A stretch of DNA of 64,000 nt, from the NCBI RefSeq assembly GCF_007990755.1, contig NZ_BJXA01000002.1:248001-312000 (forward strand). Direction: 5' to 3'. Each line of letters begins with the position of its first letter. Position 1 is the first letter of the stretch. Of this stretch, positions 3,232-32,304 are shown in pieces. Both the position numbers and the translations under genes were made by a program. The DNA comes from Nocardia ninae NBRC 108245 (GTDB lineage: Bacteria; Actinomycetota; Actinomycetes; Mycobacteriales; Mycobacteriaceae). The notes under the pieces were generated by a model that saw only the letters and a program-made list of their open reading frames with translations, ran no database searches and was not told the DNA's origin.

Positions 3232-3240
3232 GACCCCAAC

Positions 3241-8516: not shown

Positions 8517-8691
8517 GTGTGCTCGGTTGCCGCACTCGGCTCAGCTCCGCCGCGTGAATTCGCCGATGTGGTTTGCGGCCTCGACGGCCGGGTAGGCGTT
8601 CGACGACTCGCATAACACCTGCCCCCGCTGCGCCGCGGCGAACATCCCAGCACCCGAACCTGATTCACCGACGGACCACGAAGGAGTCCAG

Positions 8692-9210: not shown

Positions 9211-9226
9211 CCCTGGGAGACGACAA

Positions 9227-11308: not shown

Positions 11309-13480
11309 TTACTTGCTGTACTCCGCGCCCCTGGCCCACACGCGGTGCTCCGGCAGCAGCGCGGCGATCGCGTCGAAGGCCGCGGCGACGGTCTTGGTTG
11401 CCGCGACACCGGCCGAGCTGTCCGGGATACCCGCGGCGCGAAGGGCATCCGCGCCGTCGGGGGTGTAGGCGATTCCCTTGAGGTGGCGATGCGCTTCCTG
11501 GAGGAGCAGGGTGAGTCGGACATCGTCGGCGGTGCTCGCGATGACGAGTGCGTCGAGCTCGATGGAGCGGACGGTGTCGAGGGTGCGCGACACCGTCACT
11601 TGTGTTCCGCCCCTTTCGAGTTCGCCGCCGTGCGGCGCGATCACCAGCGGGGTCATCGACTGCCCCGAGATGGTGGCGACGGTGGTGGCCAGGTCCTTCA
11701 GGTCGGTCGACTCGTCGGCGAAGATGCCGATGATCCGGCCGTCGGTCGGCCACTTGCCGCCGAGTTGGGAGAGCGCGGGCGACACCGCAACCTTGACCTT
11801 CTTGCCCGCCTTGCCCGGCAGCGGCAAGCCGAGACCCGCAGCGACGGTCTGAGCGAGTTGCTCATCGATCTGCCGCAGTACCGTCACGGCGCGTTGTTTG
11901 ATCGCCTTCTCGTAGCACTTGCCCAGCTCGAAGGTGTAGGCCTTGGCGACGTGCGCCTGCTCGACCGGCGACAGGCTGGCGTAGAACAGCCGCGCCGAGC
12001 TGAAGTGGTCATCGAAACTCTTCGGCGCCGCGCGCACCTTCTGCCCGGCGACCGCCTCCGGGTACTCGATCAGCGCGGCGTCCTTGTTCCCGGCCAGGAA
12101 CGGGCACCCGCCATCGAGGCTGTTCGGACGGTACGGCGCGACACCGGAATGCACTGCGGTCTGGTGCATTCCGTCGCGGAACATGTCGTTGGTGCCGACG
12201 TGCGGCCGGTTGATCGGCAGCTGCGCGAAGTTGGGCCCGCCGAGGCGCGAGATCTGGGTATCGAGGTAGGAGAACAGGCGGCCCTGCAACAGCGGGTCGT
12301 CGGTGTGGTCGATGCCACGCACCAGATGGCCGGGGTGGAAGGCCACCTGCTCGGTCTGCGCGAAGTAGTTCGTCGGGTTGGCGTTGAGCGTCATCGTGCC
12401 GATGACCTGCACCGGTGCCAGCTCCTCCGGCACGAGCTTGGTGGGGTCGAGCAGATCGATGCCTTCGAAGGTCTGGTCCTCGGTGTCGGGGAATACCTGC
12501 ACGCCGAGGTCCCACTGCGGGAAGGCGCCGGCTTCGATGGCATCGGCCAGATCGCGGCGGTGCATGTCCGGATCGACACCCGCGGCGATCTGCGCCTCTT
12601 CCCAAAGTAGCGAGTGCACACCGAGTTTCGGCTTCCAGTGGAACTTCACCAGGACGGTCTTGCCGCGCGCGTTGATCAGCCGGAAGGTGTGGACCCCGAA
12701 GCCCTCCATCATCCGGTAGGAGCGCGGGATGCCACGGTCGGACATGTTCCACAGGGTGTGCGCGGTGGCCTCGGTGTGCAGCGTGACGAAATCCCAGAAG
12801 GTGTCGTGCGCGCTCTGGGCCTGGGGGATCTCCCGGTCCGGGTGCGGCTTTCCCGCGTGGATGATGTCGGGGAACTTGACGCCGTCCTGGATGAAGAACA
12901 CCGGGATGTTGTTGCCGACGAGGTCGAACACGCCCTCGTCGGTGTAGAACTTGGTGGCGAAGCCGCGGGTGTCGCGCACCGTGTCGGCCGAACCGCGCGA
13001 ACCGAGCACCGTGGAGAAGCGCACGAAAACCGGCGTCTCCTTGCCCTTTTCGAACAGCGAAGCACAGCAGATCTTCTCCGCCGCACCGTTGGCCGCGAAC
13101 ACTCCGTGCGCGGCCGCGCCGCGGGCGTGCACGACCCGCTCGGGGATGCGTTCGTGATCGAAGTGGGTGATCTTCTCGCGGAGGTGGTGGTCCTGCAGCA
13201 GTACCGGTCCGCGCGGACCCGCCTTCAGCGAGTGGTCGGTGTCGGTCAGCCGGGCGCCCTGCGCCGTCGTGAGGTAGGCGCCCTGCTGCGCCATCGCCTC
13301 GACGGGTGCAGGCACCGGCACCCCCGTCGGCGTGCTCGGCCGGGGGGCGGCCTGGTCGGGTTTCGGCGGCAGCGGTTCGTGCGGCTGCGTCGGTTCGGTC
13401 ACCGACGGGGCGGTGACGGACGGCGCTCCGGGCACGGCGGGCGGCGTTTTCGACTTCGAACGACGGCTGGATCCGGGCAT
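11309..13480 (-). CDS. katE: Large-subunit catalase HPII (KatE)
   Basis: A 723-residue clade II haem catalase that converts hydrogen peroxide to water and oxygen. The distal His is in RVVHARGAAAHG near residue 118, the catalytic Asn in VGNNIPVFFIQD near 190, and the proximal haem Tyr in RLFSYLDTQISRLG near 405. Residues about 570-720 form the extra flavodoxin/DJ-1-like C-terminal domain (GRIIGIFADEST, VIAPHGGEL) found only in large-subunit enzymes. ATG 13480 has AGGAGGT upstream. The first 70 residues are Pro/Ser/Lys-rich and disordered. A strong terminator follows, so it is probably monocistronic. Confidence 0.97.
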   Translation of the reverse strand: MPGSSRRSKSKTPPAVPGAPSVTAPSVTEPTQPHEPLPPKPDQAAPRPSTPTGVPVPAPVEAMAQQGAYLTTAQGARLTDTDHSLKAGPRGPVLLQDHHLREKITHFDHERIPERVVHARGAAAHGVFAANGAAEKICCASLFEKGKETPVFVRFSTVLGSRGSADTVRDTRGFATKFYTDEGVFDLVGNNIPVFFIQDGVKFPDIIHAGKPHPDREIPQAQSAHDTFWDFVTLHTEATAHTLWNMSDRGIPRSYRMMEGFGVHTFRLINARGKTVLVKFHWKPKLGVHSLLWEEAQIAAGVDPDMHRRDLADAIEAGAFPQWDLGVQVFPDTEDQTFEGIDLLDPTKLVPEELAPVQVIGTMTLNANPTNYFAQTEQVAFHPGHLVRGIDHTDDPLLQGRLFSYLDTQISRLGGPNFAQLPINRPHVGTNDMFRDGMHQTAVHSGVAPYRPNSLDGGCPFLAGNKDAALIEYPEAVAGQKVRAAPKSFDDHFSSARLFYASLSPVEQAHVAKAYTFELGKCYEKAIKQRAVTVLRQIDEQLAQTVAAGLGLPLPGKAGKKVKVAVSPALSQLGGKWPTDGRIIGIFADESTDLKDLATTVATISGQSMTPLVIAPHGGELERGGTQVTVSRTLDTVRSIELDALVIASTADDVRLTLLLQEAHRHLKGIAYTPDGADALRAAGIPDSSAGVAATKTVAAAFDAIAALLPEHRVWARGAEYSK

Positions 13481-14796: not shown

Positions 14797-15666
14797 GTGC
14801 TCGACTCTGGCCGTGGTCCTGGTGCTCGGCCTACCCGAGCCACGCGGGTGCGTTCCGCGCTGTATGTGCCCGGCAACCGGCCCGAACTATTCGACAAGGC
14901 GCTGGCCGGTCCGGCGGACGTGATCCTGCTCGACCTGGAAGACGCTGTGCCGCTGGCCGATAAGGACGCGGCGCGCGCGGCGGTCTCCGCCTGGTTGCGT
15001 GACGTCGCCCTTGCCGGGCGACAGATCTGGGTCCGGGTCAATTCCGGAGTTGCCGGGCACGATGATCTGGCGGCAGTAGCACTGCCCGCGGTGTCGGCGG
15101 TCTGCCTGGCGAAAACCGAATCGGTGGAACAGGTCCGGGCCGCGGCCGAGGTGCTGGGGGAGTACGAACCGCGGCCGGGCGCGATCCGAATCTGCCCGCT
15201 GCTGGAGAGCGCGGCGGCCGTGCTCGACGCCCGTACGATCGCCGCCGGTCCACGGGTGGCGCGACTCCAGCTCGGCGAGGCAGACCTGCGGGCCGAGCTC
15301 GGTATCGAACCGAGCGCCGACGACCGCGAACTGCTGGCGGTGCGTACTCAGGTCGTGCTGGCCAGTGCGGCAGCGGGTATCGCGGCGCCGCTGGGACCGG
15401 TCAGCACCGACTTCCGGGACCCGCAGCGGTTACGCGAATCCACGCGGGCGTTGGCGCGCCTGGGCTTTCGTGGCCGCGCCTGCATCCATCCGGCGCAGGT
15501 CCAGGTGGTCAACGAGATATTCACACCTGCCGAGGACGAGTTGGACCGCGCGCGAGCGCTGGTGGACCGCTTCGACTCCGCGGCGGGTGGGGTCCTACTC
15601 GACGAGGCGGGCAGAATGGTGGATCTGGCCGTGATCCGCCAGGCCCGCCGCCTGCTGGAAGGCTGA
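14797..15666 (+). CDS. HpcH/HpaI-family lyase, CitE-like (citramalyl/malyl-CoA lyase type)
   Basis: A 289-residue TIM-barrel lyase of the CitE branch. The opening RSALYVPGNRPELFDKAL, the acidic DVILLDLEDAV and the basic WVRVNS near residue 75 are the family's CoA- and metal-binding elements; LESAAAVLDA (Glu) and LGEADLRAELG (metal Asp) follow. Enzymes of this type cleave malyl-, citramalyl- or substituted malyl-CoA into pyruvate or glyoxylate and an acyl-CoA. The GTG start is fixed by the leaderless promoter. A locus operator lies upstream, so it probably ends the CoA arm of the pathway. Exact substrate unknown. Confidence 0.88.
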   Translation: MLDSGRGPGARPTRATRVRSALYVPGNRPELFDKALAGPADVILLDLEDAVPLADKDAARAAVSAWLRDVALAGRQIWVRVNSGVAGHDDLAAVALPAVSAVCLAKTESVEQVRAAAEVLGEYEPRPGAIRICPLLESAAAVLDARTIAAGPRVARLQLGEADLRAELGIEPSADDRELLAVRTQVVLASAAAGIAAPLGPVSTDFRDPQRLRESTRALARLGFRGRACIHPAQVQVVNEIFTPAEDELDRARALVDRFDSAAGGVLLDEAGRMVDLAVIRQARRLLEG

Positions 15667-15754: not shown

Positions 15755-16426
15755 GTGATCGTTTCAGGCCTCTTCCTGCTGCTCGCGGTCGGACATCTCG
15801 CCCTCGCAGTGATCGGTGTGTCGCAGATCCGCGCCGGTGCTGCCCGGATGTTCTTGCTGCCCACGGTGTTGTGTACGGCGCTGTGCTACGACAACGCCGT
15901 GCTCGCCTCGGGGAGCGTGCTGGGCGAGGGGCGCCCCCTCGAGCTGCTGAGCGTGCCGCGCTTCGTAATGCACGCGATCCTTACCCCTTTGCTTGTGCTC
16001 TGGGCGCGCGCCGCGATGGATAGGGCGGACATCCCGGTAGCGCGTCGTCGTGGCGTTCAGGCCACTGCGGTCGCTCTCGCCAGCATGCTCATCGCGATCG
16101 GGAGTCTGCACGCACTCCAGCTCGACCTGCGCCCCCGGTGGTGGGCGGGCGCACTGCGTTATACGGACGTCGCCGGCTCTGCTGCGACGGCCCTGCCCGC
16201 GATCATCGCAGGCTTGGTCGTACTCGCGGCCGGCATAGCCCTGTGGCGCCGCCATCGATACCGCCTGCTCTTCGCTACGGCAGCGGTCATGACGCTGGTC
16301 GCCGGAGCCGCGCCCGTCATCCCGCTGCTCGGCAACGCGGGCGAGCTCGTCCTCTCGGCGGGCCTGCTCGGCACCGCAGGCTGGCTCCGGCGGCGTGACG
16401 CGGACCGCTCAATGGTCCCGCAGTAG
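15755..16426 (+). CDS. Polytopic membrane protein of unknown function
   Basis: A 223-residue protein with about seven hydrophobic helices (SGLFLLLAVGHLALAVIG at the N-terminus, LLFATAAVMTLVAGAAPVI near the C-terminus). I do not recognise a family. GTG 15755 begins directly with the first helix. The end overlaps the convergent racemase-fold gene by 18 nt. It has no evident locus operator and may be unrelated to the catabolic genes. Confidence 0.7.
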   Translation: MIVSGLFLLLAVGHLALAVIGVSQIRAGAARMFLLPTVLCTALCYDNAVLASGSVLGEGRPLELLSVPRFVMHAILTPLLVLWARAAMDRADIPVARRRGVQATAVALASMLIAIGSLHALQLDLRPRWWAGALRYTDVAGSAATALPAIIAGLVVLAAGIALWRRHRYRLLFATAAVMTLVAGAAPVIPLLGNAGELVLSAGLLGTAGWLRRRDADRSMVPQ

Positions 16427-17152
16427 CGAGCCCGCGCCCTCGATCCGGTCCCGGATACCGTTGTCGCGCAGCGCCATCCACCAGGTCGCGGCATTGATGG
16501 CGATTACCGGTTTGCTCAGCCAGCGCTCGGCTTCGTCGGCCAGGCGCACCATGGACAGATTGGTGCCGCACTGGACGAGGGCGTCGATATCGTCGCTGTC
16601 CACCTCGAGCAGCGCGGCCCGTAGGTCGCTCTCCGGCACATGGGCGATGGATACCGCGGTGGGGCACCGCAATCCCTTGATCGCGGCCACCTCGAACCCC
16701 AGCTCGCCGAAGAACCGGACGACGTTCGCATCACCGATCGGTTGATAGGGCGTCACCACGCCGATCCGCTCGGCGCCGTTCAGCGTCAGCGCACGCCTGC
16801 ACGCCTCAGCGCCGGTGGCCACCTGCAGCCCGGTCGCCTCCTCGATCTGCCGCACGAACTGCTGGTTGCCTGCCACACCGCCCCAGAACGTCTCGGCCGA
16901 CATGCCCATCACCATGTAATCCGGCTCGCACGTCAGCACCCGCGCGCAGGTCGCGTCCATCTCGGCGCGGATCTGGTCGAGCAGCCGGCCCATGCCCGCA
17001 TCGTCACCCATGTTCTGGTCCCGGATATGGATGCGACCGAAATGCGCGGTCACCCCGGGCACCCCCATGCGCGCGAAATCCGGCTCCACCACGGTATTCG
17101 TCGACGGGGCGAGCACGCCGAACTTGCGCCGCCAGCCCAGAACGTCAGGCAT
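16409..17152 (-). CDS. Asp/Glu-racemase-fold enzyme A (maleate isomerase / arylmalonate decarboxylase group)
   Basis: A 247-residue member of the Asp/Glu racemase superfamily in the maleate cis-trans isomerase and arylmalonate decarboxylase branch. The N-terminal FGVLAPSTNTVVEPDF binds carboxylate. Maleate isomerase, as known from Nocardia farcinica, uses two Cys; here the first site is Ser85 (MGMSAETFW) while the second is kept as Cys195 (VQCGTNLS). A one-Cys active site recalls arylmalonate decarboxylase. It is the last gene of the tetrapyrrole-type operon, 33 nt after the SDR. A cis-trans isomerisation or decarboxylation of a substituted maleate is plausible. Confidence 0.82.
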   Translation of the reverse strand: MPDVLGWRRKFGVLAPSTNTVVEPDFARMGVPGVTAHFGRIHIRDQNMGDDAGMGRLLDQIRAEMDATCARVLTCEPDYMVMGMSAETFWGGVAGNQQFVRQIEEATGLQVATGAEACRRALTLNGAERIGVVTPYQPIGDANVVRFFGELGFEVAAIKGLRCPTAVSIAHVPESDLRAALLEVDSDDIDALVQCGTNLSMVRLADEAERWLSKPVIAINAATWWMALRDNGIRDRIEGAGSLLRDH

Positions 17153-17185
17153 AGAACATCTTCCAATCGCTACGATTCTTCGTGC

Positions 17186-17971
17186 TCATTCGGCGAACAG
17201 ATCGCGCCGCCGGAACGGAGCGGCGGCGAAGCGGCCGAGCACCTTCGTTGTGGTGAGCCAGCGGACATGCGCGCCGTTGCGCGGGTGCGCGACAGCGCGT
17301 TCGGCCAGCCACGGCGCGACGGTCTCGACCCGGTCGGCGAGAATATTGAAAATCCTGCGCGCCTTGGCCAATTCGTCGGGATCGGCGTAGCCCTGCGTCA
17401 GCAGGTCGGTGACGACCATGCCGGGGCTCAGCAGACCGACGGAGACACCGGTGGGCACCTCCTTGGCGAGTGCTTCGGTCAGATAGGTGAGTGCTCGCTT
17501 GCTCGCACCGTACACCGACAGTCCCGGTACCGAGCGGCCGTCGCTGCCGAGACCTTCCATATTCCATACGTACCCGCCGCCCGCGTCCGCCATGCCCGCG
17601 ATCGCGACGGCGGAGCCGTTGAGCGCGCCGATCAGGTTGGTGTCGAACACTTTCCGGACATCCTCGGCGGGCAGCTCCCACATCGGCGTTCGGGTATGCG
17701 TGATACCCGCGTTGTTGATCCAGACATCGATCCGGCCGAAGCGGGCGACCGCCGCATCCCAGAGCGCTTGCAGCTGAGCGCGATCGGTGACGTCGGCGGC
17801 CAGCAGCAGTGCGGCGTCGGAGAGTTCGGCTCGCAGCTTGTCGATCCGCGCGGTATCGGTGCCGCACAGCGCGACGCGATGCCCCCGGTCGAGCAACGCT
17901 CTGGCCAGGCCGAGCCCGAGGCCACGGGTGCCGCCGGTGACCACGACGGTTTTGCTCGCGGGCGCGTTCAT
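17186..17971 (-). CDS. SDR oxidoreductase resembling chlorophyll b reductase (NYC1/NOL)
   Basis: A 261-residue short-chain dehydrogenase. TGGTRGLG (12-19) binds NAD(P); WINNAG is at 84-89 and YGASK at 154-158. The unusual NMEGLGS (137-143), SPGMVVTDLL (182-191) and IFNILADRVETVAPWLA (207-223) correspond to NMDGAGS, SPGMVLTELLL and MFNIICELPETVA of plant NYC1/NOL as I recall them; these segments are not general SDR motifs. NYC1/NOL reduce the 7-formyl group of chlorophyll b. ATG 17971 overlaps the preceding stop (ATGA). With RCCR-like and Rieske genes in the operon, a tetrapyrrole side-chain carbonyl is the likely substrate. Confidence 0.85.
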   Translation of the reverse strand: MNAPASKTVVVTGGTRGLGLGLARALLDRGHRVALCGTDTARIDKLRAELSDAALLLAADVTDRAQLQALWDAAVARFGRIDVWINNAGITHTRTPMWELPAEDVRKVFDTNLIGALNGSAVAIAGMADAGGGYVWNMEGLGSDGRSVPGLSVYGASKRALTYLTEALAKEVPTGVSVGLLSPGMVVTDLLTQGYADPDELAKARRIFNILADRVETVAPWLAERAVAHPRNGAHVRWLTTTKVLGRFAAAPFRRRDLFAE

Positions 17972-18885
17972 GAGCGCACCAGCACGCCGTGCAGCACAGC
18001 GCTGAGGCTGTTGTGTTCGAACAGTTCGTAGACCACGGCGAGCTCGGTGCCCGCGCCCATTCCCGGTTCGGCGTCCATCATGAATTCGCGTCCGTTGAGT
18101 CTGCCGCCGTCGGACAGGTGCAGCGCCGGATAGTTGGCACGGCCGTAGGCCGTCGCGTTGCCCCAGGCGCCGGGCCCCTCGTGGAACGAGCGGACGCCGT
18201 CGCGGCGCACCGTCGCCTCGAAGGTGCGGTCGAGCGCGCCGCTCCAGGTGACGCGGTGCTCGGCGGTGAGCAAGCTCAGTGGCGTCACCTCGAGGACGAT
18301 CCGCACCGTGCCGCGGTGCTGCTGGTCGGCGCCCCACAGCTCGCAGTCACCGGCATAGCGGCAGTCGTCTTTGGTGGGCAGCACGAAAGGGGTCGCCCCA
18401 GAACGCGTCTCGTGCTCGATGAGGTCGTCCCGCAGTGCGGGGTCGCGGGTGTAGACGCCATTGAACACGCCGATCATCGCCGGCCCCTGGTACAGCACCG
18501 AGGAGTACACCTGCGTATCACCGAGGGTCTGGTTCCAGGTGTTCAAACCCACCTGCCAGCCGGGTCCGTAGTAGTGCGCGTCGACGAAGCCGCCGTACGG
18601 CCTACCCGCACCGTAGAAGTCGGGGCCGGTGTAGAGCCGATCGTTGTCGGAGTCGACCACCCCGAAGGCGAACGGCGCGCCGAGGGCGAACCGCCCCGCG
18701 AGCTCGCCACCGCCGGTGAGCCCGCCGTCCATGTAATAAGTCGTTGTCCCGTCGGCGAAGACCGACGATCGGCGGATGTCCTCGAAACCACGCCATACCC
18801 CGTCGGCGGCGAACAGCGATGGCCTGCCGACCCATTCGCCGGCGATGCGCTGCTGCCACTGGCTCGGCGCTGCGGCGGCGGTCAT
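17968..18885 (-). CDS. Unknown protein in the tetrapyrrole-type operon, probable beta-barrel
   Basis: A 305-residue protein that I do not recognise. It has no signal peptide or membrane helix. The repeated short stretches rich in Gly, Tyr, Trp and Phe (YYMDGGLTGGGELAGRF, GPDFYGAGRPYGGFVDAHY, YSSVLYQGPAMIGVF) suggest a beta-barrel or lipocalin-like fold. Two Cys flank CRYAGDCELWG near residue 175. It is coupled by ATGA overlaps to an RCCR-like gene upstream and the NYC1-like SDR downstream, so it should act on, or carry, the same pigment-derived intermediates. Confidence 0.8.
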   Translation of the reverse strand: MTAAAAPSQWQQRIAGEWVGRPSLFAADGVWRGFEDIRRSSVFADGTTTYYMDGGLTGGGELAGRFALGAPFAFGVVDSDNDRLYTGPDFYGAGRPYGGFVDAHYYGPGWQVGLNTWNQTLGDTQVYSSVLYQGPAMIGVFNGVYTRDPALRDDLIEHETRSGATPFVLPTKDDCRYAGDCELWGADQQHRGTVRIVLEVTPLSLLTAEHRVTWSGALDRTFEATVRRDGVRSFHEGPGAWGNATAYGRANYPALHLSDGGRLNGREFMMDAEPGMGAGTELAVVYELFEHNSLSAVLHGVLVRS

Positions 18886-19571
18886 CCGAGCAACTCCGCC
18901 CGCACCCGCTCGGCCTGCTCGTCGCCGAGCAATCCGGCCACCTGCGCCCACACCAGGTCCACCTCGGGGCTGAACAGGTTCGCGCGGTTGGCGCGGTCCC
19001 GAGCTGCGGTATCGCCGGTGACCGCCGGAACTCCCTTGTCCACCAGGGTGAGCCAGTGCTGGAGATAGCCCACGACGGTGGCATCCAATGCCTGGAAGGC
19101 GGATTCGGTGGCTCGGCACACGACCATCCACGGCGACATCATCGCCCGCTGCCGCGGTCCGATCGCCGCCGCCGATACCCCGTCTAGCTGCCATGCCGCC
19201 TCCAACAGCGGGGTGAGCGGCAGGTATGCGGCGTCGAGGTAGGCGAGATGCACCGCGAGGTCGGCACGGGGGATGAGATCGAGGTGCATGGCGTGATAGT
19301 GAGTGGACCGCACCGAGTCCAGGGTGAAGTGCGGGATCGCCGAATCCGCCGGGGTGAACGCGAAGATCATATGGCTGTCCAAGCCAATGGCCGGGACAAC
19401 CAGATCGACGGTGACGACCTTGTCGATCGGGCCACCGCGCAATACGCGCAACCTGCCGACCGGGTCGGGTGACATGGAACTGGTCAGCGCGATGTCGTCG
19501 GCGGTGGTGAGATCGAGGGCGGTGCTCAGCGTCCGCAGCGTGCGTTCGCTGAGCTCGGTGGGCAGGCTCAT
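18882..19571 (-). CDS. Red chlorophyll catabolite reductase-like protein 2
   Basis: A 229-residue protein whose layout follows the ferredoxin-dependent bilin reductase / RCCR superfamily: HFTLDSVRS near residue 81, MHLDLIPRADLAVHLAYLD at 95-113 (compare LDLPHRKDLVLNPDYL in Arabidopsis RCCR) and RAMMSPWMVV at 142-151 (compare RSAFSPTASM), then an ARDRANR helix near 198. RCCR reduces an open-chain tetrapyrrole with electrons from ferredoxin. It is shorter and more divergent than the paralogue at 21645. ATG overlaps the Rieske stop. The fold call is good; the actual bilin is unknown. Confidence 0.75.
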   Translation of the reverse strand: MSLPTELSERTLRTLSTALDLTTADDIALTSSMSPDPVGRLRVLRGGPIDKVVTVDLVVPAIGLDSHMIFAFTPADSAIPHFTLDSVRSTHYHAMHLDLIPRADLAVHLAYLDAAYLPLTPLLEAAWQLDGVSAAAIGPRQRAMMSPWMVVCRATESAFQALDATVVGYLQHWLTLVDKGVPAVTGDTAARDRANRANLFSPEVDLVWAQVAGLLGDEQAERVRAELLG

Positions 19572-20689
19572 CGCGGTGTTCCTCCGTTGCGGGCCTTGTG
19601 CACCCAGGCCTGTTCGAGTTCGGGATTGTCCCGCCGGGCTGGCGAGGCGATGACGGTGGCGGTGCGGCGTGGCCCGTCCCCGGTGATGATGTCGTCGCCG
19701 CCGACCCACCAGCCGTCCTTGATCAGCTGGGATCGCCTGCGCCGGTAGGCGACCTGCAGTGCGTCACTGCGCACGTGCAATTCGTCGGACAGGTCGAACG
19801 GCAGCAGCTCGGGGTGTTGTGACTCGACGATCGGTTTGTCCTGCAGCAGAATGTCTTTGATTCTTCGGCGGGCGTCCGCGTCGGCCCAGCGGCCGGTGAA
19901 GAAGTTCCGATAGCCGAGGATCTTGATCAGGGTGCGGTCCTGCGACAGCGGGATATTGAAGTCGTAGAGCAGCAGATCCCCGATGGGCAGCCGGATGTGC
20001 AGCTTCACCACGTTGGGCAGGTACCAGCCATTGGTGACGGTGACGAACTCCGGGCGCGGCTTGTTCCTGGACAGCAGGCCCCACAGTCCGCTCGGCGGCG
20101 GGGGACTGAGTTGGATGTCGGCCTCGGCGGACCAGTCGTCTTTGCGGACAGTGAAATTCGGGATCTCCGGCTTGTCCGGATTACCGAACCTGGTGCCGTG
20201 CACGAACGGCGTGTGCGAGGCGTCCACGACGTTCTCGAAGGTGCGTTCGTAATTCGCCTCGACCTCCATCTCGAACTGCACCATCCGGAAGGCCGGATCG
20301 TCGTGCACCGGGATGTCCGGGATCGGCGGGCGCTGGTGCTCGGGCAGGTCGCCGAGGAAGGCCCAGACCATGCCGTAGCGTTCCTGCGTGGGGTAGGCGT
20401 CGACCCTGGCCTTCTTCGGAATGGCCCGATCCGCCGAATTCGCCGGTATGCGCACGCAGGCGCCCTCGGCGTCGTACTGCCAGCCGTGGTACGGACAGGC
20501 AATACAGTCGCCGGTGAGCGTGCCCATCGACAGCGCGCCGCCACGGTGCACACACAGATCCGACAGGCATACCGCCGTGCCCGCGGTGGTGCGATACAGC
20601 ACGAAGTCCTGACCGAGGCAGGTCACCTTTTTCGGTGTGCGGCCGACCTGGTCGGCGAATTCCAGGGCGTACCAGAAGTTTTTCAACAT
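19568..20689 (-). CDS. Rieske non-haem iron oxygenase, pheophorbide-a-oxygenase-like role
   Basis: A 373-residue oxygenase. The 2Fe-2S Rieske ligands are Cys46-His48 (CVHRGG) and Cys65-His68 (CPYHGW). The mononuclear iron site is ENVVDASHTPFVHG with Asp156, His159 and His164. This is the stand-alone alpha-subunit type, as in plant pheophorbide a oxygenase (PaO), TIC55 and bacterial demethylases. Lying between two RCCR-like genes, a PaO-like macrocycle-opening oxygenation is the natural prediction, but sequence alone cannot separate this from demethylation. ATG 20689 overlaps the hydrolase by 7 nt. No dedicated reductase is in the operon, so a general ferredoxin system is needed. Confidence 0.88.
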   Translation of the reverse strand: MLKNFWYALEFADQVGRTPKKVTCLGQDFVLYRTTAGTAVCLSDLCVHRGGALSMGTLTGDCIACPYHGWQYDAEGACVRIPANSADRAIPKKARVDAYPTQERYGMVWAFLGDLPEHQRPPIPDIPVHDDPAFRMVQFEMEVEANYERTFENVVDASHTPFVHGTRFGNPDKPEIPNFTVRKDDWSAEADIQLSPPPPSGLWGLLSRNKPRPEFVTVTNGWYLPNVVKLHIRLPIGDLLLYDFNIPLSQDRTLIKILGYRNFFTGRWADADARRRIKDILLQDKPIVESQHPELLPFDLSDELHVRSDALQVAYRRRRSQLIKDGWWVGGDDIITGDGPRRTATVIASPARRDNPELEQAWVHKARNGGTPR

Positions 20690-21648
20690 TGTTCGTGCTC
20701 CGCTAGATGGGGCCGCAGCACCTGCGCCGCGACGTAGTCGGCGAGTTCGCTTCGGGCCGTTGCCGAATCGTGCAGGTGTGCGTGCAGGAAGGCGGACGTG
20801 AGCCGGGCGAACGGCGCCAGCGCGTCCACGTCGCCCGGTCCGTCGAGGAAGGCCCGTGCCGCGGTCGGATCGGCGTCGGCGATCCCGAAGTGGTTGGCCT
20901 CCGGGATGACCGCGAGCAGATGGTCACCCGGCGGCAATGCTTCGTCGAATGTCCGGGCCACCGGGTCGGGCCGGTCGGCGCCGTCCTCGCCGTACCGGTC
21001 GGCGCTGCCGTTGATGACACCGTCGTTGGTGCCGACGCCGAGCAACACGGGGCAATTGACCTGTGCGGGCAGCACGGTGCCTGCGGGCCAGCCCAGCATG
21101 GTCGCCACCATCGTGTGCGCGCCCCACGCGAAAACCGCTCCGACCGAGGGGAAGAAGCGCGCCGACTGGAGTACGACGGTCCCGCCCGCGGAATGTCCGC
21201 CGAGTGCGATGCAGTCCAGATCCAGTGCCCCGCGCAAGGGGCCGTCGCCGTTCAACTCGGTGAGCGCGTCGAGGACCGCGCCGATGGTCGGACAGGTCGG
21301 GCGGGTGCCGTAGGCGTCGGGCCGGGCCGCGTCGAGGTCGACGCCGACCGTCAATCCGCGTAGCCCGCCGAACAATTCGGCGACCCGATCGAAAGTCACC
21401 ACCACGAAACCGGTTTCGGCGACGGCGGTGGCGAAGCGGCGATAGGAATCCTGACCGACATTGACCCCGGACAGGAAGACCACCACCGGATACGGTGCGG
21501 CTGCCGGATCGGGCTCGAAGACGCCGGTCAACCGCTCGTGGTCGGAGCCGGTGGCGATCGCGGGGTAGTAGACCTTCAAATGCGCGGTATCGAAAGGCGC
21601 TTCACCCGCCGTGCGCGCCGACCACCAGAGCGAACGGACGATGCTCAT
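20683..21648 (-). CDS. Cytoplasmic alpha/beta hydrolase, chlorophyllase/PAF-acetylhydrolase-like
   Basis: A 321-residue hydrolase with PYPVVVFLSGVNVGQDSYRR (oxyanion segment) near residue 52, nucleophile elbow GGHSAGG with Ser153, and a candidate catalytic His in EANHFG near 250. The order of a short lid-less core with FLSGVN and a late His resembles chlorophyllase and plasma PAF-acetylhydrolase. No signal peptide is present, so it acts inside the cell. ATGA overlap with the RCCR-like gene upstream. It may remove a phytyl or methyl ester, for example the C13(2) carboxymethyl of a pheophorbide. Confidence 0.8.
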   Translation of the reverse strand: MSIVRSLWWSARTAGEAPFDTAHLKVYYPAIATGSDHERLTGVFEPDPAAAPYPVVVFLSGVNVGQDSYRRFATAVAETGFVVVTFDRVAELFGGLRGLTVGVDLDAARPDAYGTRPTCPTIGAVLDALTELNGDGPLRGALDLDCIALGGHSAGGTVVLQSARFFPSVGAVFAWGAHTMVATMLGWPAGTVLPAQVNCPVLLGVGTNDGVINGSADRYGEDGADRPDPVARTFDEALPPGDHLLAVIPEANHFGIADADPTAARAFLDGPGDVDALAPFARLTSAFLHAHLHDSATARSELADYVAAQVLRPHLAEHEQC

Positions 21649-22487
21649 GACCGCGCCTCGCGGATACTTGACGCTGCTTCGGCGACCGGCCGCGGCAGCA
21701 CGCGGTCGCCACCCCAGAGGCCACGCACCAGACGCTGGGTGAGTTCGGCCCCGAACATGCGCTCGCCCATCACATTCGCGGGATCGCGTTCGGCGATATT
21801 GCGGCGGACCGCGAGGTCACGTGCCGCCAATGCCGCCTGCTCGTCGGCGGGCACCGGCGCGGCGGCGTCGACCCAGCCGAGCCACTGCTCGACCCGCGCG
21901 CCGAGCAGCGCGGCGACGGTCTCCCGATTGGCTCGATGCGGCGGGAAGGAGTAGCAGTACGCGGTGGGCGACAGGCTGCCACGAATGAACCCCGTGCGGC
22001 TGGTGAACCAGGTGAAGTCGGGATGCTCTTCCTTGAACGCCAACCACGGTGCGTCGTTCTCGGCGTAGTAGCTGTCGAAGTAGTCACCGTCGCCGACCAG
22101 ATCGCCACGCGGCACCGCGTCGACATAGAACCAGCCCTCCGGCCACAGCAGCAACGCGATGCCCAGGTGCGGGACCCTGACCTGCGGACCGAGCCACACG
22201 GTGAGGTGCAGGTTGACGAAACCTGTTGCGGGGTCGCCGATCCAGGAATGCACCAACCAGTCGATCTCCGGCCCGGTGTAGGCGGCCAGGCTGCCGGACG
22301 GGCCGGTGGCCGGGTCGCCGTAGCTGTCCAGATCGTCGGTCGACGGATCTCTGGTGAGGTCGAACCGTTCGGCGATCCGAGACTTCAGCCCGCTCAACAG
22401 GTCTCGCCATTCCTGAAAGGTCTCGGTGACGTCCGTCCTGGCCGTCTCGTCGACCAACTGCTCGACATGTCGGACTGTTTCACTCAT
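21645..22487 (-). CDS. Red chlorophyll catabolite reductase (RCCR)-family protein 1
   Basis: A 280-residue protein that aligns with Arabidopsis RCCR (ACD2) over its C-terminal two thirds as I recall that sequence: VDAVPRGDLVGDGDYFDSYY at 122-141 (plant LDLPHRKDLVLNPDYLKEYY), FIRGSLSPTA at 167-176 (plant FVRSAFSPTA), and the distal ARDLAVRRNIAERD at 222-235 with MFGAEL at 244-249 (plant RRDKSFRRKSIEDD, MFGEEV). RCCR reduces the C20/C1 double bond of red chlorophyll catabolite using ferredoxin. ATG 22487 has CGGAG; the gene lies 20 nt after the nitrilase. Bacterial members are not something I know to be characterised. Confidence 0.85.
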   Translation of the reverse strand: MSETVRHVEQLVDETARTDVTETFQEWRDLLSGLKSRIAERFDLTRDPSTDDLDSYGDPATGPSGSLAAYTGPEIDWLVHSWIGDPATGFVNLHLTVWLGPQVRVPHLGIALLLWPEGWFYVDAVPRGDLVGDGDYFDSYYAENDAPWLAFKEEHPDFTWFTSRTGFIRGSLSPTAYCYSFPPHRANRETVAALLGARVEQWLGWVDAAAPVPADEQAALAARDLAVRRNIAERDPANVMGERMFGAELTQRLVRGLWGGDRVLPRPVAEAASSIREARS

Positions 22488-22507
22488 CGTCGCTCCGGGT
22501 TCTGTCG

Positions 22508-24121
22508 TCACTGTGCTTCTGTCGTCATGGCGTCGAGCGGGTGCCGCGGACGCCCGTCCACCAGGTCGGTGCCCCGGGATACGGCGCGGTTCACGGCCTG
22601 CCCGGGCCGCACGGTCGCGCGCACGCTCGGCGCACCGGGCGGGGCTTCGGTCACGATGGGGTGGCTGATCACGCCGGTGAACGGCCCGCTCCACGCGGTC
22701 CACAAGGTGAAATCGGGGCTCAGCGCGTAGATCGCGCCGACGAGTCCGCCGCGCTCGTCGCTGCCCGCGGCGACAATGTTCATCCTGTTCTCCGCGGCGC
22801 GCTCGGCCAGGCCGAGGGGCAATTCCCATGGCTCGGTGGGTGAGTACGGCACCGCGACGACGTCCACGTCCTGAATAGCGGCCAGCCGGAAGCTCTCCGG
22901 GAACAGCGCGTCGTCACCCACCACGAGTGCCATTCGGCCCCAAGGCAACTGGAAAACCGCCAGCGCACTGCCCTGCCGGGTCAACCACGGATGACGGTTG
23001 GTCGGGTGCAGCTGCGGCTGGCAGCCGACCACTCCGTCGGCGTCGACCAGCACGCCGTGATGCGCGCCGCCGGTCCGTACGCTGAGCACCGCGTGTGCGG
23101 TCGTACCGTGCAGTGCCCGCACGACTTCCGGGACCGGCATCGCCGCGAGTTCGGGGAGCACGATGAGGGCTACGCCGTCGGCCGCTAGTTCGGTGATCAG
23201 CTCGGTGTCGGCGATCGCGAGCGCGGCCGACAGCGTCGGCGACCCGGCCGGTGCACGCCGACCGAGCGGTGCGCTGGTCAGCGGGGCGTAGAGCTCGGGC
23301 CTGCGCGCGGCGAGGATATCGGTGCCGTCGGGCCTGCGTTTGTCGTCGGCCAGCGGCACGTCGATATCGGCGACCACGATCGCCTCGCCGGTGACCGGCG
23401 CCATCGCGACCGGCCTGCCGTCCGGGCCGACGATCTGGCTTTCGCCCGCGCCGTGCAGGCGATCCGGCGGCACGCCGAGCCGGGCGGCGATCTGCGGCAG
23501 TTGCTCGGCGGGCAACAGGGGCCCGACCTTGTTCGCGGCCACCACCCACACCTTGTTCTCGGCGGCGCGCACCGGTATGTGCAGGCTCGCCTCGTCGATG
23601 GCGAACGAGTTGAGACTGTTGAGCAACAGCTGCGCACCGCGCAGTGCGAGCGACCGGGCGACCTCGTTGATGACGCCTTCCATGCAGGCGTACATGCCGA
23701 TGCGGCCCAAAGGCGTAGTTAGCACCGGTGATTCGACCGTGCCCGCGTCGAGATAGTCGTTCTCGGCGCCCATCAGGATCTGCTTGTCGGACTCGCCGAG
23801 CAGCGCACCGTCCGGCCCGAACAGCAGGCCGGTGCCGGTGGTGCGGCCGTCGGCCCGCGCCAGCGTGACGCCGATCTTCACGTAGCAGTGGTGCCGCCGC
23901 GCCCGCTCGGCGACGGCGGTGAGGAAGGTGTCGCCGAGCGTGCAGGCCATTCGGCGCGCATGCGCCCGATCGTCGTACCAAGATAGATGGTTACAGAATT
24001 CCGGCAGCACAACGAGTTCCGCCGCCGCTTCGGCGGCCTGGTCGATCATCCGGAGGCAGGCGTCGAGGTTGACCGCGACGTCGGTTCCCGCAGCGAGTTG
24101 TGCGGCCGCGACTCGGGTCAT
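22508..24121 (-). CDS. Tandem nitrilase-superfamily protein, second domain degenerate
   Basis: A 537-residue fusion of two carbon-nitrogen hydrolase domains. Domain 1 (1-280) keeps the catalytic triad Glu41 (VVLPEF), Lys113 (ESDKQILMG) and Cys146 (MYACMEGV). Domain 2 (295-510) keeps Glu324 (VLPEL) but has no Lys at the expected QPQLHPT region and Asp in place of Cys (VVGDDALFPE), so it is probably inactive and structural. The family hydrolyses amides, nitriles or N-carbamoyl groups. ATG 24121 is used; longer upstream reading has no ribosome site. It is the first gene of the eight-gene operon, behind a perfect locus operator. A half-amide of a maleimide-type product is a fitting substrate. Confidence 0.88.
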   Translation of the reverse strand: MTRVAAAQLAAGTDVAVNLDACLRMIDQAAEAAAELVVLPEFCNHLSWYDDRAHARRMACTLGDTFLTAVAERARRHHCYVKIGVTLARADGRTTGTGLLFGPDGALLGESDKQILMGAENDYLDAGTVESPVLTTPLGRIGMYACMEGVINEVARSLALRGAQLLLNSLNSFAIDEASLHIPVRAAENKVWVVAANKVGPLLPAEQLPQIAARLGVPPDRLHGAGESQIVGPDGRPVAMAPVTGEAIVVADIDVPLADDKRRPDGTDILAARRPELYAPLTSAPLGRRAPAGSPTLSAALAIADTELITELAADGVALIVLPELAAMPVPEVVRALHGTTAHAVLSVRTGGAHHGVLVDADGVVGCQPQLHPTNRHPWLTRQGSALAVFQLPWGRMALVVGDDALFPESFRLAAIQDVDVVAVPYSPTEPWELPLGLAERAAENRMNIVAAGSDERGGLVGAIYALSPDFTLWTAWSGPFTGVISHPIVTEAPPGAPSVRATVRPGQAVNRAVSRGTDLVDGRPRHPLDAMTTEAQ

Positions 24122-24314: not shown

Positions 24315-25520
24315 ATGACGAGGCATCGCCCATCCCTAGGTGATGCGGACAGCGGGCGCCCGTCACGGACTCCGATCGGCTACGCCGATCACCCTCGATA
24401 CAGCGTGCGCCGGACCGGGAGTGTCGGTGCGGCAGTGCTTTGCGCGGTCGCGGCAGGGCCGGTGTCGGGTGGTCAGTTGGTACTGCTCGCCAAGCCCTTC
24501 GGTGGTGTGCTCGGGGTGCCCGGGGCGGTGGTCGGTTATCTGATGCTCACCGCCGGGGTGCTCGGTCTCTTTGCCGCGGCGCTGTGTCTGTGGCGATTGC
24601 GGCTGTCGCTTGGAATGGCAAGTGCGAGTGGGAGTCTCGCCGGTGTCGCGGTAGTCGTAGCGGGTGTCGTCGACACCGTCGCGGTGTTCACGATCGCGGC
24701 GCTCGTCGCGGGTGCGGCGACGGGCCCGCTGCTGCTCGCCGGTCGTGCCCTCGCGGCCGAGTTCGGACGTGGAAACTTCGTCTTCCTCCATGCGGCGGGT
24801 GCGGGGGGAGTAGCCGTCGCCGCATGGCTGAGTGGTTACTACTACGAGGAGCCCGGTACAGGCCTGCTCATCGCGGGCGCGTTGACCACCACCCTCGGCG
24901 TGGCCGTCGGACTGGTCGGGCTTCGTGGCGCAGGCGGGCTGCCTGCGGTCCGGGTCGGTAAGAACTCGGTACCTCCTCGTTCTGTCTTATTCGGTTATGT
25001 CGCAATAGGACTCGCGGTCGGGGGTACGGTGCTGCCCGCGCTGCATTTACTGCTATTCCGGTGGAACGAATTCGGTGCTGAGCAATTCATCTGGCTCGCA
25101 TTCGCGGCCGCACCCGCGGCGGCCATCGTCGCGTTGCCGGGCCGTCGACCCGCCGCCGTTCCCGTGCTGTTGATTCTGGCGGCGGGCGGGGCGCTGCTCG
25201 TGGTGACCGCGCCGGGGCCGGTGCCATTGACGATCGGGCTGGCGGTGACGTTGGCAGCCGCCGCCCGCGCGATGACCGCGCTCGACGAGCAGGTCTGGGA
25301 GATCACGCCACCCGCCATCGGCGTTTGCGCACTTGTCGTGGCGACGGCGGGATTGGCGGGACTGGGTCTGGTCGACCTGCTGGGCCGGCTCGTCGGTACG
25401 GGGTCGGCGCTGACCGTCCTCGGTATGTGCGTACTCATTGCGGCGTGGCTGTCCGGCCGACCTGACCGACGCCTGCTCCCCGGCACGCGCGGATCGTCCA
25501 GTGAAAGAGGTGCGCCATGA
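24315..25520 (+). CDS. Polytopic membrane transporter, MFS-like
   Basis: A 401-residue protein with about 10-12 hydrophobic helices, beginning after a charged 40-residue cytoplasmic tail (VGAAVLCAVAAGPVSGG). It has the length and symmetry of a major-facilitator transporter, but no diagnostic motif is obvious. ATG 24315 has GGAGG at good spacing. It is divergent from the tetrapyrrole-type operon, each promoter carrying the locus operator, and is coupled by ATGA to two surface neocarzinostatin-fold proteins. Import of the pathway substrate is the best guess; export of an end product is possible. Confidence 0.72.
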   Translation: MTRHRPSLGDADSGRPSRTPIGYADHPRYSVRRTGSVGAAVLCAVAAGPVSGGQLVLLAKPFGGVLGVPGAVVGYLMLTAGVLGLFAAALCLWRLRLSLGMASASGSLAGVAVVVAGVVDTVAVFTIAALVAGAATGPLLLAGRALAAEFGRGNFVFLHAAGAGGVAVAAWLSGYYYEEPGTGLLIAGALTTTLGVAVGLVGLRGAGGLPAVRVGKNSVPPRSVLFGYVAIGLAVGGTVLPALHLLLFRWNEFGAEQFIWLAFAAAPAAAIVALPGRRPAAVPVLLILAAGGALLVVTAPGPVPLTIGLAVTLAAAARAMTALDEQVWEITPPAIGVCALVVATAGLAGLGLVDLLGRLVGTGSALTVLGMCVLIAAWLSGRPDRRLLPGTRGSSSERGAP

Positions 25521-26107
25521 GGAGTTTCGGTACGACGGCTCGGGTAGCGGTGACGCTGGCGCTCAGTGGCTTCCTACTCGGCTCTCCGGCGACGGCGTTC
25601 GCGGACGAACCCGCGGCGATTCAGGTCGACGCCACGTCCGAGCTGACGGAAGGCCAGCGAATCACACTGAGCGGCAGTGGCTTTCGTGCTGGACTTGCCG
25701 CCGTCGCAGTAGGCATGTGCAAAGCGGGCTTCAGCAACGGACTGAAGGACTGCGACTTGTCCGGCGGCGCGACGTTCGTCAATATCGGCGCGGACGGCAC
25801 CTTCGGCCCGCTGACCCTGACCGCGCACCCCCGATTCCACGAGATCGACTGCACCCAGCAGCAGTGTGTGCTCGCGGCCGCGCCCCTGCCCGGCACCGAA
25901 CCGCCTGCCGTCATAGCGGCGAATTCCGCTGCGGTGCCGGTAACTTTCGCGGGCGCGCGGCCACCGACCGCCACGGCACCCGTCCCCGCCGCGGCCGCGC
26001 GCTCGGACACCGACATCGAAGGTCCGTCCACCCCGCTGTGGGCGGCCACCGCCGGCCTGCTCGTGCTCGTCGCCGGTTTCGCCCTCGCCGATCGACGGCG
26101 ACTGTGA
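25517..26107 (+). CDS. Membrane-anchored neocarzinostatin-fold protein 1
   Basis: A 196-residue exported protein: signal peptide (1-30, ending AFADE), a neocarzinostatin-type beta-sandwich (about 32-150) with the paired disulfide pattern (MCKAGF...DCDL and DCTQQQCVLA), a Pro/Ala linker and a C-terminal membrane helix (WAATAGLLVLVAGFALA) followed by RRR. Neocarzinostatin apoprotein binds a hydrophobic chromophore in its cleft. ATG overlaps the transporter stop. A surface receptor that captures a flat hydrophobic pigment and hands it to the transporter is inferred from context only. Confidence 0.82.
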   Translation: MRSFGTTARVAVTLALSGFLLGSPATAFADEPAAIQVDATSELTEGQRITLSGSGFRAGLAAVAVGMCKAGFSNGLKDCDLSGGATFVNIGADGTFGPLTLTAHPRFHEIDCTQQQCVLAAAPLPGTEPPAVIAANSAAVPVTFAGARPPTATAPVPAAAARSDTDIEGPSTPLWAATAGLLVLVAGFALADRRRL

Positions 26108-26126: not shown

Positions 26127-26738
26127 GTGAAGCTCATCGGTACCCGGCCCGGGACACAGGGGATATGCGGCAGGCCACGTCTCGTGGCGCTGGCCGCGCT
26201 CACCACGGCCGGGCTTCTCGTCGGCATGCCGACCGCACTGGCCGCCCCGGCTCTCCAGGTGAGCCAATCCACGGGACTCGCCGTGGGGCAGACGATCACG
26301 GTGACCCTGGACGGACTGCCCGCGAATACGGCGGCGGTCGCCGTCGGCCAATGCAAACCGCGGATCGCGGGTCCGGGTGACTGCAATCTGACCGGTTCGA
26401 TGATGGGTGCCGCTGATGGGCAGGGCAGTTGGCAACCCACCGGGGATAAACGGGCCATCACGCTCGTCGGTGCGATCGGTGGCACCGACTGCACCGCGGC
26501 ACCGGGTGCCTGCACGATCAGTGTCACCAGCCTGACCAACGCGACGGAGATCATCGCCTCGGTGCCGTTGACCTTCGGACCGCCCGCAGAGGCTCCGAAA
26601 CCCACTGCTGCCGCCAGTGATTCAGCCGAGAGCGACGACTCCGACAGCAACACTCCCGTCATGGCGGGCATCGGTATCGCCGCGGCGGTGCTCATCGCGG
26701 CCGCCGTGGTGCTAGTGGCCCGCCGTCGTCGCAACTGA
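26127..26738 (+). CDS. Membrane-anchored neocarzinostatin-fold protein 2
   Basis: A 203-residue paralogue of the preceding protein: signal peptide (about 1-40, ending TALAAP), beta-sandwich with QCKPRI...DCNL and DCTAAPGACTISV Cys pairs, an acidic linker (SAESDDSDSN) and a C-terminal helix (GIAAAVLIAAAVVLVA) plus RRRR. GTG 26127 has AGGAGG upstream and lies 19 nt after its neighbour. The two differ strongly in cleft-region sequence, so they may bind different ligands or form a relay. Confidence 0.82.
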   Translation: MKLIGTRPGTQGICGRPRLVALAALTTAGLLVGMPTALAAPALQVSQSTGLAVGQTITVTLDGLPANTAAVAVGQCKPRIAGPGDCNLTGSMMGAADGQGSWQPTGDKRAITLVGAIGGTDCTAAPGACTISVTSLTNATEIIASVPLTFGPPAEAPKPTAAASDSAESDDSDSNTPVMAGIGIAAAVLIAAAVVLVARRRRN

Positions 26739-26936: not shown

Positions 26937-28367
26937 TTATCGGTGCGGCTCCGCGGACGCGCTCGGGTAAGCACCGGCGGGTAGACCGGCACCGCCCGCG
27001 CGGAAGGCGCCGGGTGCGTGCGTGACGGTCGGCTGGACGTACTCGCCCAGACCTTCCTGCGCGTACTCCCGGCCGAAGCCACTGTTCTTGGTCCCGCCGA
27101 ACGGGGCACGCAGCGACATGCCGGTGCGGTTGTGCGTATTGATGAAGGTGAAGCCCGCTTCGATGCGGGCGGCGACGGCGAAGGCGCGGTCCTCGTCGGC
27201 CGACCAGACCGATGCGGCCAGACCGAGCTCGGAATCGTTGGCGCGCGCGAGGACCTCGGCCTCGTCGCGGTAGGTGAGGATCGGCACTGCCGGGCCGAAC
27301 TGCTCCGTGCGGACCAGATCCGCGTCGTCGGGCACTCGGAGCGCGAGTACCGGATCGAGGAAATATCCCTCGCCGGTCGGCGCGCAGGCGAGCGGGACGA
27401 TCAGCGCACCGAGGTCCCTGGCGTCGGTGACCAGCCCGCGCACCCGTTCGGCGGCTGCCCGGGTCGCTACCGGACCCATGGTGACGGTTTCGTCGAGCGG
27501 ATCGCCGACGAGCAGGATGCGTTGTGCGGCAGCGATATACGACTCGACGAATTCGGCGAGCCGAGTCTCGGGCACGTACAGCCGCTTCGCGGCCATGCAC
27601 ACCTGTCCGGCCGTGGCGAACGAGGCGAGCACTAGGCGCTCGAAATCCGCTGGGGTCAAGGCGAAGTCGTCCAAGAGTATGGCCGGATCATTGCCGCCGA
27701 GCTCCAGTAGCACCGGCTTGATCGCCTCGCCCGCCGCCGCCGCGATCGCGCGTCCGGCCTGCGCACCGCCGGTGAAGGCGACCTTGCGCACCAGCGGATG
27801 GGCGATCAGCGCGTGCACCGTAGCCGGGCCGCCGTGGACCACCGTGGTGGCGGGCAGCAATTCGGCGGCGGCGGTAATGGCGAGCGGTGCCAGCGGCGAG
27901 GGTTTGAGCACCACCGCATTACCCGCGGCGAGGGCGGGACCGAGCTTGAGCATCGACAGAATGATCGGCGCGTTCCACGGCGTGATCGCGGCGACCACGC
28001 CGAAAGCCCGCGGCGACACGGTGACTCGACCTTGCGCGTCATCGGTGGTCCGGGCACTGAGCACTTCCGCCGCGTGCGCGCGCACCCAGCGCAAATAGGT
28101 GGCGGCGAAACCGATCTCACCGCGGCAATCGCCGACGGGTTTACCGGTCTCGCGCGCCAGCAAGGTCGCCAGCTCGGTAGTGCGGGCATCGAGGGCGTCG
28201 GCGGCACGGCCGAGCGCGGCCAGGCGAGCTTCCAGCGGTTGCTGCGACCATTCGCGAAACGCCGAGTGGGCGTTGCGCACAACAGCATCGACCGCATCGG
28301 GTTGCGTCGCGGTCACCGCTCCGACGATCTCCCGCGGCCGCGCCGGGTTCTCGCGTTCGATCCTCAC
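26937..28367 (-). CDS. Aldehyde dehydrogenase 1
   Basis: A 476-residue NAD(P)-dependent aldehyde dehydrogenase. The cofactor segment ITPWNAPI is near residue 130, the general base Glu in LELGGND near 235 and the nucleophile Cys in AGQVCMAAK near 270; the C-terminal FGGTKNSGFGREYA is typical. It oxidises an aldehyde to an acid. GTG 28367 overlaps the stop of the flavin monooxygenase (GTGA). It is the last gene of a four-gene unit led by an acyl-CoA-dehydrogenase-like protein under a locus operator. Confidence 0.92.
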   Translation of the reverse strand: MRIERENPARPREIVGAVTATQPDAVDAVVRNAHSAFREWSQQPLEARLAALGRAADALDARTTELATLLARETGKPVGDCRGEIGFAATYLRWVRAHAAEVLSARTTDDAQGRVTVSPRAFGVVAAITPWNAPIILSMLKLGPALAAGNAVVLKPSPLAPLAITAAAELLPATTVVHGGPATVHALIAHPLVRKVAFTGGAQAGRAIAAAAGEAIKPVLLELGGNDPAILLDDFALTPADFERLVLASFATAGQVCMAAKRLYVPETRLAEFVESYIAAAQRILLVGDPLDETVTMGPVATRAAAERVRGLVTDARDLGALIVPLACAPTGEGYFLDPVLALRVPDDADLVRTEQFGPAVPILTYRDEAEVLARANDSELGLAASVWSADEDRAFAVAARIEAGFTFINTHNRTGMSLRAPFGGTKNSGFGREYAQEGLGEYVQPTVTHAPGAFRAGGAGLPAGAYPSASAEPHR

Positions 28368-32162: not shown

Positions 32163-32191
32163 CGGACCATCCTCTAGCGGTCTGTATTGCT

Positions 32192-32208
32192 GTTTCGGTA
32201 GTCGAAAC
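32192..32208. promoter_or_regulatory. 17-bp dyad operator of the dehydrogenase/monooxygenase operon
   Basis: GTTTCGGTAGTCGAAAC is a perfect dyad with 6-bp arms, flanked by T/A. It lies 29 nt upstream of the flavoprotein start. Confidence 0.85.
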
Positions 32209-32267
32209 ATTGTTACGCACACGGTAACGCCGTGCCTCGGCGGCACGCAAGCCATGATGGGGATGGT

Positions 32268-32284: not shown

Positions 32285-32292
32285 CCACCGCC

Positions 32293-32298: not shown

Positions 32299-32304
32299 CG
32301 AGGC

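Follow-up and report, generated by a model that had tools for sequence, protein, structure and literature searches.

Two RCC reductase-fold proteins in a conserved gene cluster of Nocardia ninae, probably for the breakdown of linear tetrapyrroles

The plant PaO/phyllobilin pathway runs through chlorophyll b reductase, chlorophyllase, pheophorbide a oxygenase (PaO) and RCC reductase (RCCR; Pfam family PF06405; solved structures 2zxk, 3aga and 3agb). In bacteria, RCCR-domain proteins are described from Nostoc and Anabaena, two of them adjacent in Nostoc punctiforme, but these hosts are photosynthetic and the passages cited mention no catabolic operon (PMC2716323). Bacterial pre-PcyA bilin reductases lie in conserved clusters of heterotrophs, as do the proteins reported here, but according to the passages cited their partners are Fe-S, V4R and globin proteins, and RCCR is an outgroup there (PMC10151467). 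A description of a bacterial RCCR catabolic operon was not found in the open-licence literature, judged by titles and abstract openings. Reported here is an operon of eight genes in a 64-kb stretch (the window) of the 9.7-Mb assembly of Nocardia ninae NBRC 108245, which encodes two RCCR-fold proteins, RC1 and RC2. It is probably the upper section of a bacterial cluster that degrades linear tetrapyrroles (bilins, phyllobilins) or di- or tripyrrolic fragments of them.

A sequence-only reading of this DNA had placed the operon at 16409..24121, and all eight open reading frames are found there on the minus strand. Read in the direction of transcription they are Nit, RC1, Hyd, RO, RC2, Cal, SDR and Amd (Table 1; Cal, Nit, Amd and the other gene names are coined here). 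Four of the seven junctions show a 4-base ATGA overlap, one shows a 7-base overlap, and gaps of 20 and 33 bases make up the rest. The RCCR pair and the Rieske oxygenase (RO) named by that reading stand, but it left Cal, Nit and Amd unnamed and the conserved surroundings, to about 44 kb, undescribed.

RC1 gives a near full-length match to PF06405 (52.5 bits, cut-off 24.9, E = 5.4e-14). When a profile of the RC1 family is compared with PDB sequences, Arabidopsis RCCR is found at E = 2.7e-20 and GtPEBB at E = 2.1e-8. The ferredoxin-dependent bilin reductases (FDBR; PcyA, PebA, PebB and HY2) are less close: RC1 scores 11.3 bits against the FDBR family PF05996, below the cut-off of 31, and RC2 has no match to that family at E<=1. 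RC2 resembles PF06405 weakly, at 17.4 bits and under the family cut-off; its predicted structure is the alpha-beta-alpha sandwich fold of RCCR and FDBR, and on superposition it fits bilin reductases and RCCR equally well. The claim of two RCCR-like proteins is thus upheld, for RC1 by the family match and for RC2 by the predicted fold. The result named beforehand as contrary to that claim was a lack of RCCR-model matches together with a different fold; RC1 matches the model, and the RCCR/FDBR sandwich is predicted for RC2.

Glu154, Asp291 and Phe218 are functional residues of RCCR. The equivalent of Asp291 is kept in RC1 as D235, which is invariant (52/52 sequences), but the place of Glu154 is occupied by an alanine, A111, in all 52. 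In RC2 the Glu154 place is held by Asp85 (49/49), and the Asp291 place is uncertain in the alignment. Phe218 aligns with a leucine in the window's RC1. If both acidic residues, Glu154 and Asp291, are taken as the mark of the family, RC1 carries one of the two. The presence of two diverged copies per operon is a further difference from the plant enzyme.

The operon was followed through 51 loci, 46 of them named loci from a sequence-record search and 5 more. All were found via RC1, so RC1 is present in each by construction; the count includes L011 and L026, which are the same record, and L019 and L020, which are 99% identical, and genes in the relatives were called with our own GC-frame script, uncurated. 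RO is found in 50 of the 51 loci, Hyd and Cal in 49, RC2 in 48, SDR in 47, Nit in 46 and Amd in 45. The eight core genes keep the same order and strand in 43/51 loci, and seven (without Nit) do so in 44/51. Because the eight-gene order and strand are kept in 43 loci, the operon is more than a chance arrangement. The named loci are from Nocardia, Actinomadura, Nonomuraea, Streptosporangium, Thermomonospora, one Streptomyces, Rhizocola and Nocardioides, and from metagenome-assembled genomes (MAGs) of Acidimicrobiales, of one actinobacterium and of the gammaproteobacterial Pseudohongiella. The closest named record is Nocardia suismassiliense, with an RC1 96% identical to that of the window.

In a sample of 397 genomes of the order, RC1 (searched as PF06405), RC2 and Cal are each found in six genomes, the same ones for all three. 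The RC1 profile finds 3 genomes among 396 sampled from the phylum and 4 among 369 sampled from the class to which the Pseudohongiella MAG belongs, starting genomes included; the genome searches miss some loci, e.g. a Streptosporangium copy known from the named-record search was not recovered. Among 72,556 plasmid records, tblastn found nothing that matches the RC1 of the window. The Pseudohongiella MAG carries RC1, Hyd, Cal, RO and RC2 together with an aldehyde dehydrogenase (ALDH1) and a flavin monooxygenase (ACADmo) of the wider cluster, rearranged and inside about 13 kb. Three further genomes with RC1 were sampled in its class; part of the set is retained in two of them but not in G1154. 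Locus L085 keeps RO, Hyd, RC1, ALDH1, ACADmo and RC2, and L084 keeps Nit, ACADmo, Amd2, ALDH1 and RC1. Overall, the system is rare and patchily distributed, and its genes mostly stay together. As a separate observation, an actinobacterial MAG (L055, L070-L073) shows four matches to PF06405 spread over four contigs, one of the matches lying below cut-off, and further copies of RC2 and Cal. The hydrophobic protein encoded next to the operon, on the other strand, has weak relatives (28-32% identity) adjoining RC1 in the distant loci L049, L084 and L085.

The sequence-only reading had seen in the operon the enzyme set of plants. A Rieske oxygenase and RCCR-type reductases do occur together in both systems, and RC1 is an RCC_reductase with the oxygenase operon-linked. 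The DdmC-type iron ligands and the catalytic residues expected of nitrilases, hydrolases and short-chain dehydrogenases were compared in residue alignments; frames far from the length of the window protein were left out of these, namely a read-through frame (RO) and a short frame (SDR) in L038 and partial frames (Nit) in L048 and L050. The expected sites of RO are intact, as had been claimed, with both Rieske and VanA_C domains present and with the cluster ligands C46, H48, C65 and H68, as well as N153, D156, H159, H164 and D309, invariant in 50/50 sequences. However, RO has the VanA_C domain instead of the PaO domain, and its best solved-structure matches are SxtDIOX/SxtT and NdmA/NdmB, followed by 7qwt and DdmC; it is of the VanA/DdmC/NdmA/SxtT kind. 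In 12 cluster-bearing genomes the PaO family (PF08417) is absent; the same search gave hits in 2 of 14 control genomes, one of them over cut-off. The Stay-Green Mg-dechelatase (PF12638) has no match in the same 12 genomes and none in the 14 controls either, i.e. without a positive control.

The two remaining plant labels are not specific. The best match of Hyd is to chlorophyllase (PF07224), but at 20.5 bits over 36 residues it lies below the cut-off of 26; S153, D209 and H253 are invariant (50/50). SDR, which had been called NYC1-like, matches general short-chain dehydrogenase families in Pfam and, among the best 25 of 226 matches, in NCBIfam, with Y154 and K158 invariant (47/47). The cluster is also linked, unlike the plant pathway, to ring-opening and dicarboxylate genes. 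With PaO absent from those 12 genomes, the Rieske subfamily different, Hyd and SDR unspecific and RC1 lacking the Glu154 residue, a literal bacterial copy of the plant pathway is highly improbable and was rejected.

For the first and last genes of the operon, Nit keeps E41, K113 and C146 in 45/45 sequences, and the Amd profile matches the maleate isomerases 4fq5 and 2xed. Maleate isomerase was considered as a candidate identity of Amd. C75 and C195 are present in 45/46 sequences, but the alignment offsets them by 1-2 columns from the cysteines of the isomerases, and the paralogue Amd2 is without both.

Cal is predicted to form a calycin barrel, with fold matches that include the bilin lyase CpeS and nitrobindin. 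It shares this barrel with the DUF3598, nitrobindin and CpeS-type calycins but not their sequence families: Cal has no Pfam match at E<=1 and no NCBIfam match at E<=0.01, and its profile finds nothing at E<=1 among PDB sequences. In an Acidimicrobiales cluster (L051, 9231-10975), the start of a protein with no Pfam match resembles Cal by eye and adjoins a DUF3891 protein.

Two RCCR-fold reductases and a calycin together point to a bilin-like substrate. It is rather unlikely that these folds now serve a non-tetrapyrrole substrate, e.g. another N-heterocycle, since the families found with the reductase fold (RCCR, FDBR and CPOX) act on tetrapyrroles and two diverged copies together with a calycin would otherwise be difficult to account for. 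A pathway of biosynthesis or modification, in which an altered bilin (a chromophore or secondary metabolite) is made and none is degraded, would agree with the resemblance of Cal to bilin lyases and with the clustered pre-PcyA bilin reductases of heterotrophs mentioned above (PMC10151467). Such a pathway is nevertheless improbable, the neighbours being amidases, CoA-transferases, lyases and aldehyde dehydrogenases, with no phytochrome or phycobiliprotein among the genes scanned.

These neighbouring genes point to catabolism. Upstream of the RCCR operon, ACADmo, ALDH1, FADmo and ALDH2 form an overlapping operon (26937-32288), which adjoins the RCCR operon in genomes G214, G193, G399 and G400 and in L035, and partly in Pseudohongiella. 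The best solved matches of ACADmo are the FAD-dependent oxidoreductases 4kcf/3m9v, a nitrososynthase, and DnmZ, with DszC lower; L007 and L035 have a flavin reductase at the edge of the cluster. Immediately upstream of RC1-RO-RC2-Cal, G651 has hydantoinase B and A together with an isochorismatase and a luciferase-like monooxygenase. A CitE/RipC-like match of at least 80 bits is found inside the locus in 19/51 loci. A cupin and regulators are also encoded within the approximately 44 kb. By their family matches, the genes of the wider cluster are putative openers of cyclic amides and half-amides and processors of branched dicarboxylates.

Cyclic imide catabolism uses a dihydropyrimidinase-type imidase and a half-amidase. 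The surroundings of the operon are similar in having AmH, ICH, CoA-transferases and lyases, but the module here also occurs without RC1. The ring hydrolases and amidases fit substituted maleimides. Hematinic acid and maleimides are reported among the breakdown or oxidation products of chlorophyll or heme in the passages cited (PMC7318184).

Table 1. Genes of the RCCR operon, of the wider cluster and of its borders in the window
Feature	Coordinates	Strand	Family and match
Nit	22508-24121	-	carbon-nitrogen hydrolase with long C-terminal part; CN_hydrolase 154 bits in two stretches
RC1	21645-22487	-	RCC_reductase family protein, 280 aa
Hyd	20683-21648	-	alpha/beta hydrolase; all family matches below cut-off
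RO	19568-20689	-	VanA-type Rieske oxygenase; Rieske 76.9 bits, VanA_C 86.7 bits
RC2	18882-19571	-	second, divergent protein of predicted RCCR/bilin-reductase fold, 229 aa
Cal	17968-18885	-	predicted two-domain calycin, 305 aa, no Pfam family
SDR	17186-17971	-	short-chain dehydrogenase; adh_short 142 bits
Amd	16409-17152	-	arylmalonate decarboxylase / maleate isomerase family; Amdase 69.5 bits (cut-off 25.9)
CitE/RipC-like C-C lyase	14797-15666	+	GTG start 14797 or later start 14848; RipC 162, CitE 148.5 bits, below equivalog cut-offs
ALDH2	26937-28367	-	aldehyde dehydrogenase; Aldedh 411 bits; conserved near RC1
FADmo	28364-29506	-	FAD_binding_3 monooxygenase (Pfam and NCBIfam); conserved near RC1
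ALDH1	29503-30891	-	aldehyde dehydrogenase; Aldedh 304 bits; 45% relative in Pseudohongiella
ACADmo	30888-32288	-	acyl-CoA-dehydrogenase-like flavin monooxygenase (Pfam)
IclR regulator	32254-33090	+	IclR_C 151 bits
ICH	33823-34497	-	isochorismatase-family hydrolase, probable amidase; Pfam (longer frame); NCBIfam best biuret amidohydrolase, below cut-off
CoAT1	34508-35737	-	class III CoA-transferase; CoA_transf_3 418 bits; best NCBIfam succinate-glutarate CoA-transferase, below cut-off
HMG-CoA-lyase-like	35817-36725	+	PRK05692 320 bits, cut-off 246
PrpD	36708-38114	-	MmgE/PrpD-family dehydratase (family match)
Cyc	38111-38899	-	PF04199 cyclase/hydrolase (family match)
CoAT2	38953-40146	-	class III CoA-transferase (family match)
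AmH	40280-41743	+	allantoinase/dihydropyrimidinase-type cyclic amidohydrolase; TIGR03178 238 bits, below equivalog cut-off 358
Amd2	43496-44239	+	second Amd paralogue; Amdase 84.3 bits; 55% identical to Amd
Hydrophobic protein	15755-16426	+	223 aa, no Pfam match
Long catalase	11309-13435	-	PF00199, 554 bits
Neocarzinostatin-family protein	25517-26107	+	39.0 bits (cut-off 25)
Neocarzinostatin-family protein	26127-26738	+	34.1 bits (cut-off 25)

Of the other genes in Table 1, the catalase lies near the cluster. The two neocarzinostatin-family genes are neighbours and lie between both operons, and relatives of them adjoin RC1 in many Nocardia loci.

The reading of the operon as the upper part of a bilin-degrading cluster is supported by gene content and protein families, the predicted folds of RC2 and Cal, the presence in Nit, Hyd, RO and SDR of the catalytic residues expected of each, and the conserved linkage. 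In the proposed mechanism, Cal would bind the hydrophobic pigment, and RC1 and RC2, with ferredoxin, would reduce either methine bridges or one of the rings. Oxidation or cleavage of the chain would fall to RO and the two flavin monooxygenases, Hyd may take off an ester, and the aldehyde dehydrogenases may oxidise the aldehydes released by cleavage. The ring ends would probably leave as substituted lactams or maleimides, to be opened by the cyclic-amide hydrolase AmH (in G651 by the hydantoinase A/B-type enzymes) and by the amidases ICH and Nit. The resulting substituted dicarboxylates would be degraded via the CoA-transferases, the PrpD-type dehydratase and the HMG-lyase/CitE-type lyases.

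The source of the pigment may be chlorophyll, heme or another oligopyrrole. Catabolism on the heme side would start from biliverdin or bilirubin, supplied by the cell's own heme oxygenase or by uptake. The genome encodes a heme oxygenase outside the cluster (232.5 bits), RC2 superposes on bilin reductases as well as on RCCR, and the same end products are drawn for heme in the cited passages (PMC7318184). The heme oxygenase, however, sits on another contig (C89), and RC1 is far closer to RCCR than to FDBR (52.5 vs 11.3 bits); an origin of the substrate in heme is considered unlikely.

Several results weigh against the interpretation, among them those for PaO and Stay-Green described above for the 12 genomes. 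The substrate, the order of the steps and every chemical activity are what we infer from the evidence listed. The acid missing from RC1 and the out-of-register cysteines of Amd, both judged by alignment, make the chemistry uncertain. No ferredoxin or pigment importer stood out among the genes scanned, no dedicated search having been made. Genome G1154 carries two RC1-like genes (33%; L082 and L083) without the rest of the cluster, and in L036 (Nonomuraea corallina) RC1 is found without the other seven core genes. That the lower module occurs exclusively with RC1 was considered and rejected, since it is carried by four of the seven Nocardia searched that lack RC1. In these four (G254, G021, G234 and G293) a stand-alone PrpD-Cyc-AmH-CoAT2 module is found with IclR and CitE relatives; the PrpD relative is 63-65% identical and the CitE relatives 39-42%. 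Thus the module is a portable unit, independent of RC1, and its connection with pyrroles is one that we infer.

In the Nonomuraea corallina locus (2760-10822), the genes before RC1 encode a luciferase-like monooxygenase, a solute-binding protein of family 5 and, by our own reading, a flavin-reductase-like protein and a Dpp-type transporter. Dpp-type transporters function in heme uptake.

Chlorophyll formation and breakdown run to the order of 10^12 kg a year, and what happens next to the breakdown products in abiotic decay and in herbivory is stated to be largely an open question (passages cited, PMC7318184). A conserved bacterial cluster with two RCCR-fold reductases gives this question named genes. 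It also shows that an operon with RCCR-family proteins exists in bacteria whose genera are not known to photosynthesise, and this bears on the origin of the plant enzyme. It is put forward tentatively, as possible but doubtful, that the cluster encodes an aerobic route, complete in itself, on which non-photosynthetic bacteria in soil and water would feed on chlorophyll-derived bilins (phyllobilins). The two RCCR-type reductases and the oxygenases would cut the chain to mono-pyrrolic imides of hematinic acid type, to be converted into central metabolites by an imidase, amidases, CoA-transferases and lyases. If true, one of the most abundant biological pigments would thereby have a microbial sink.

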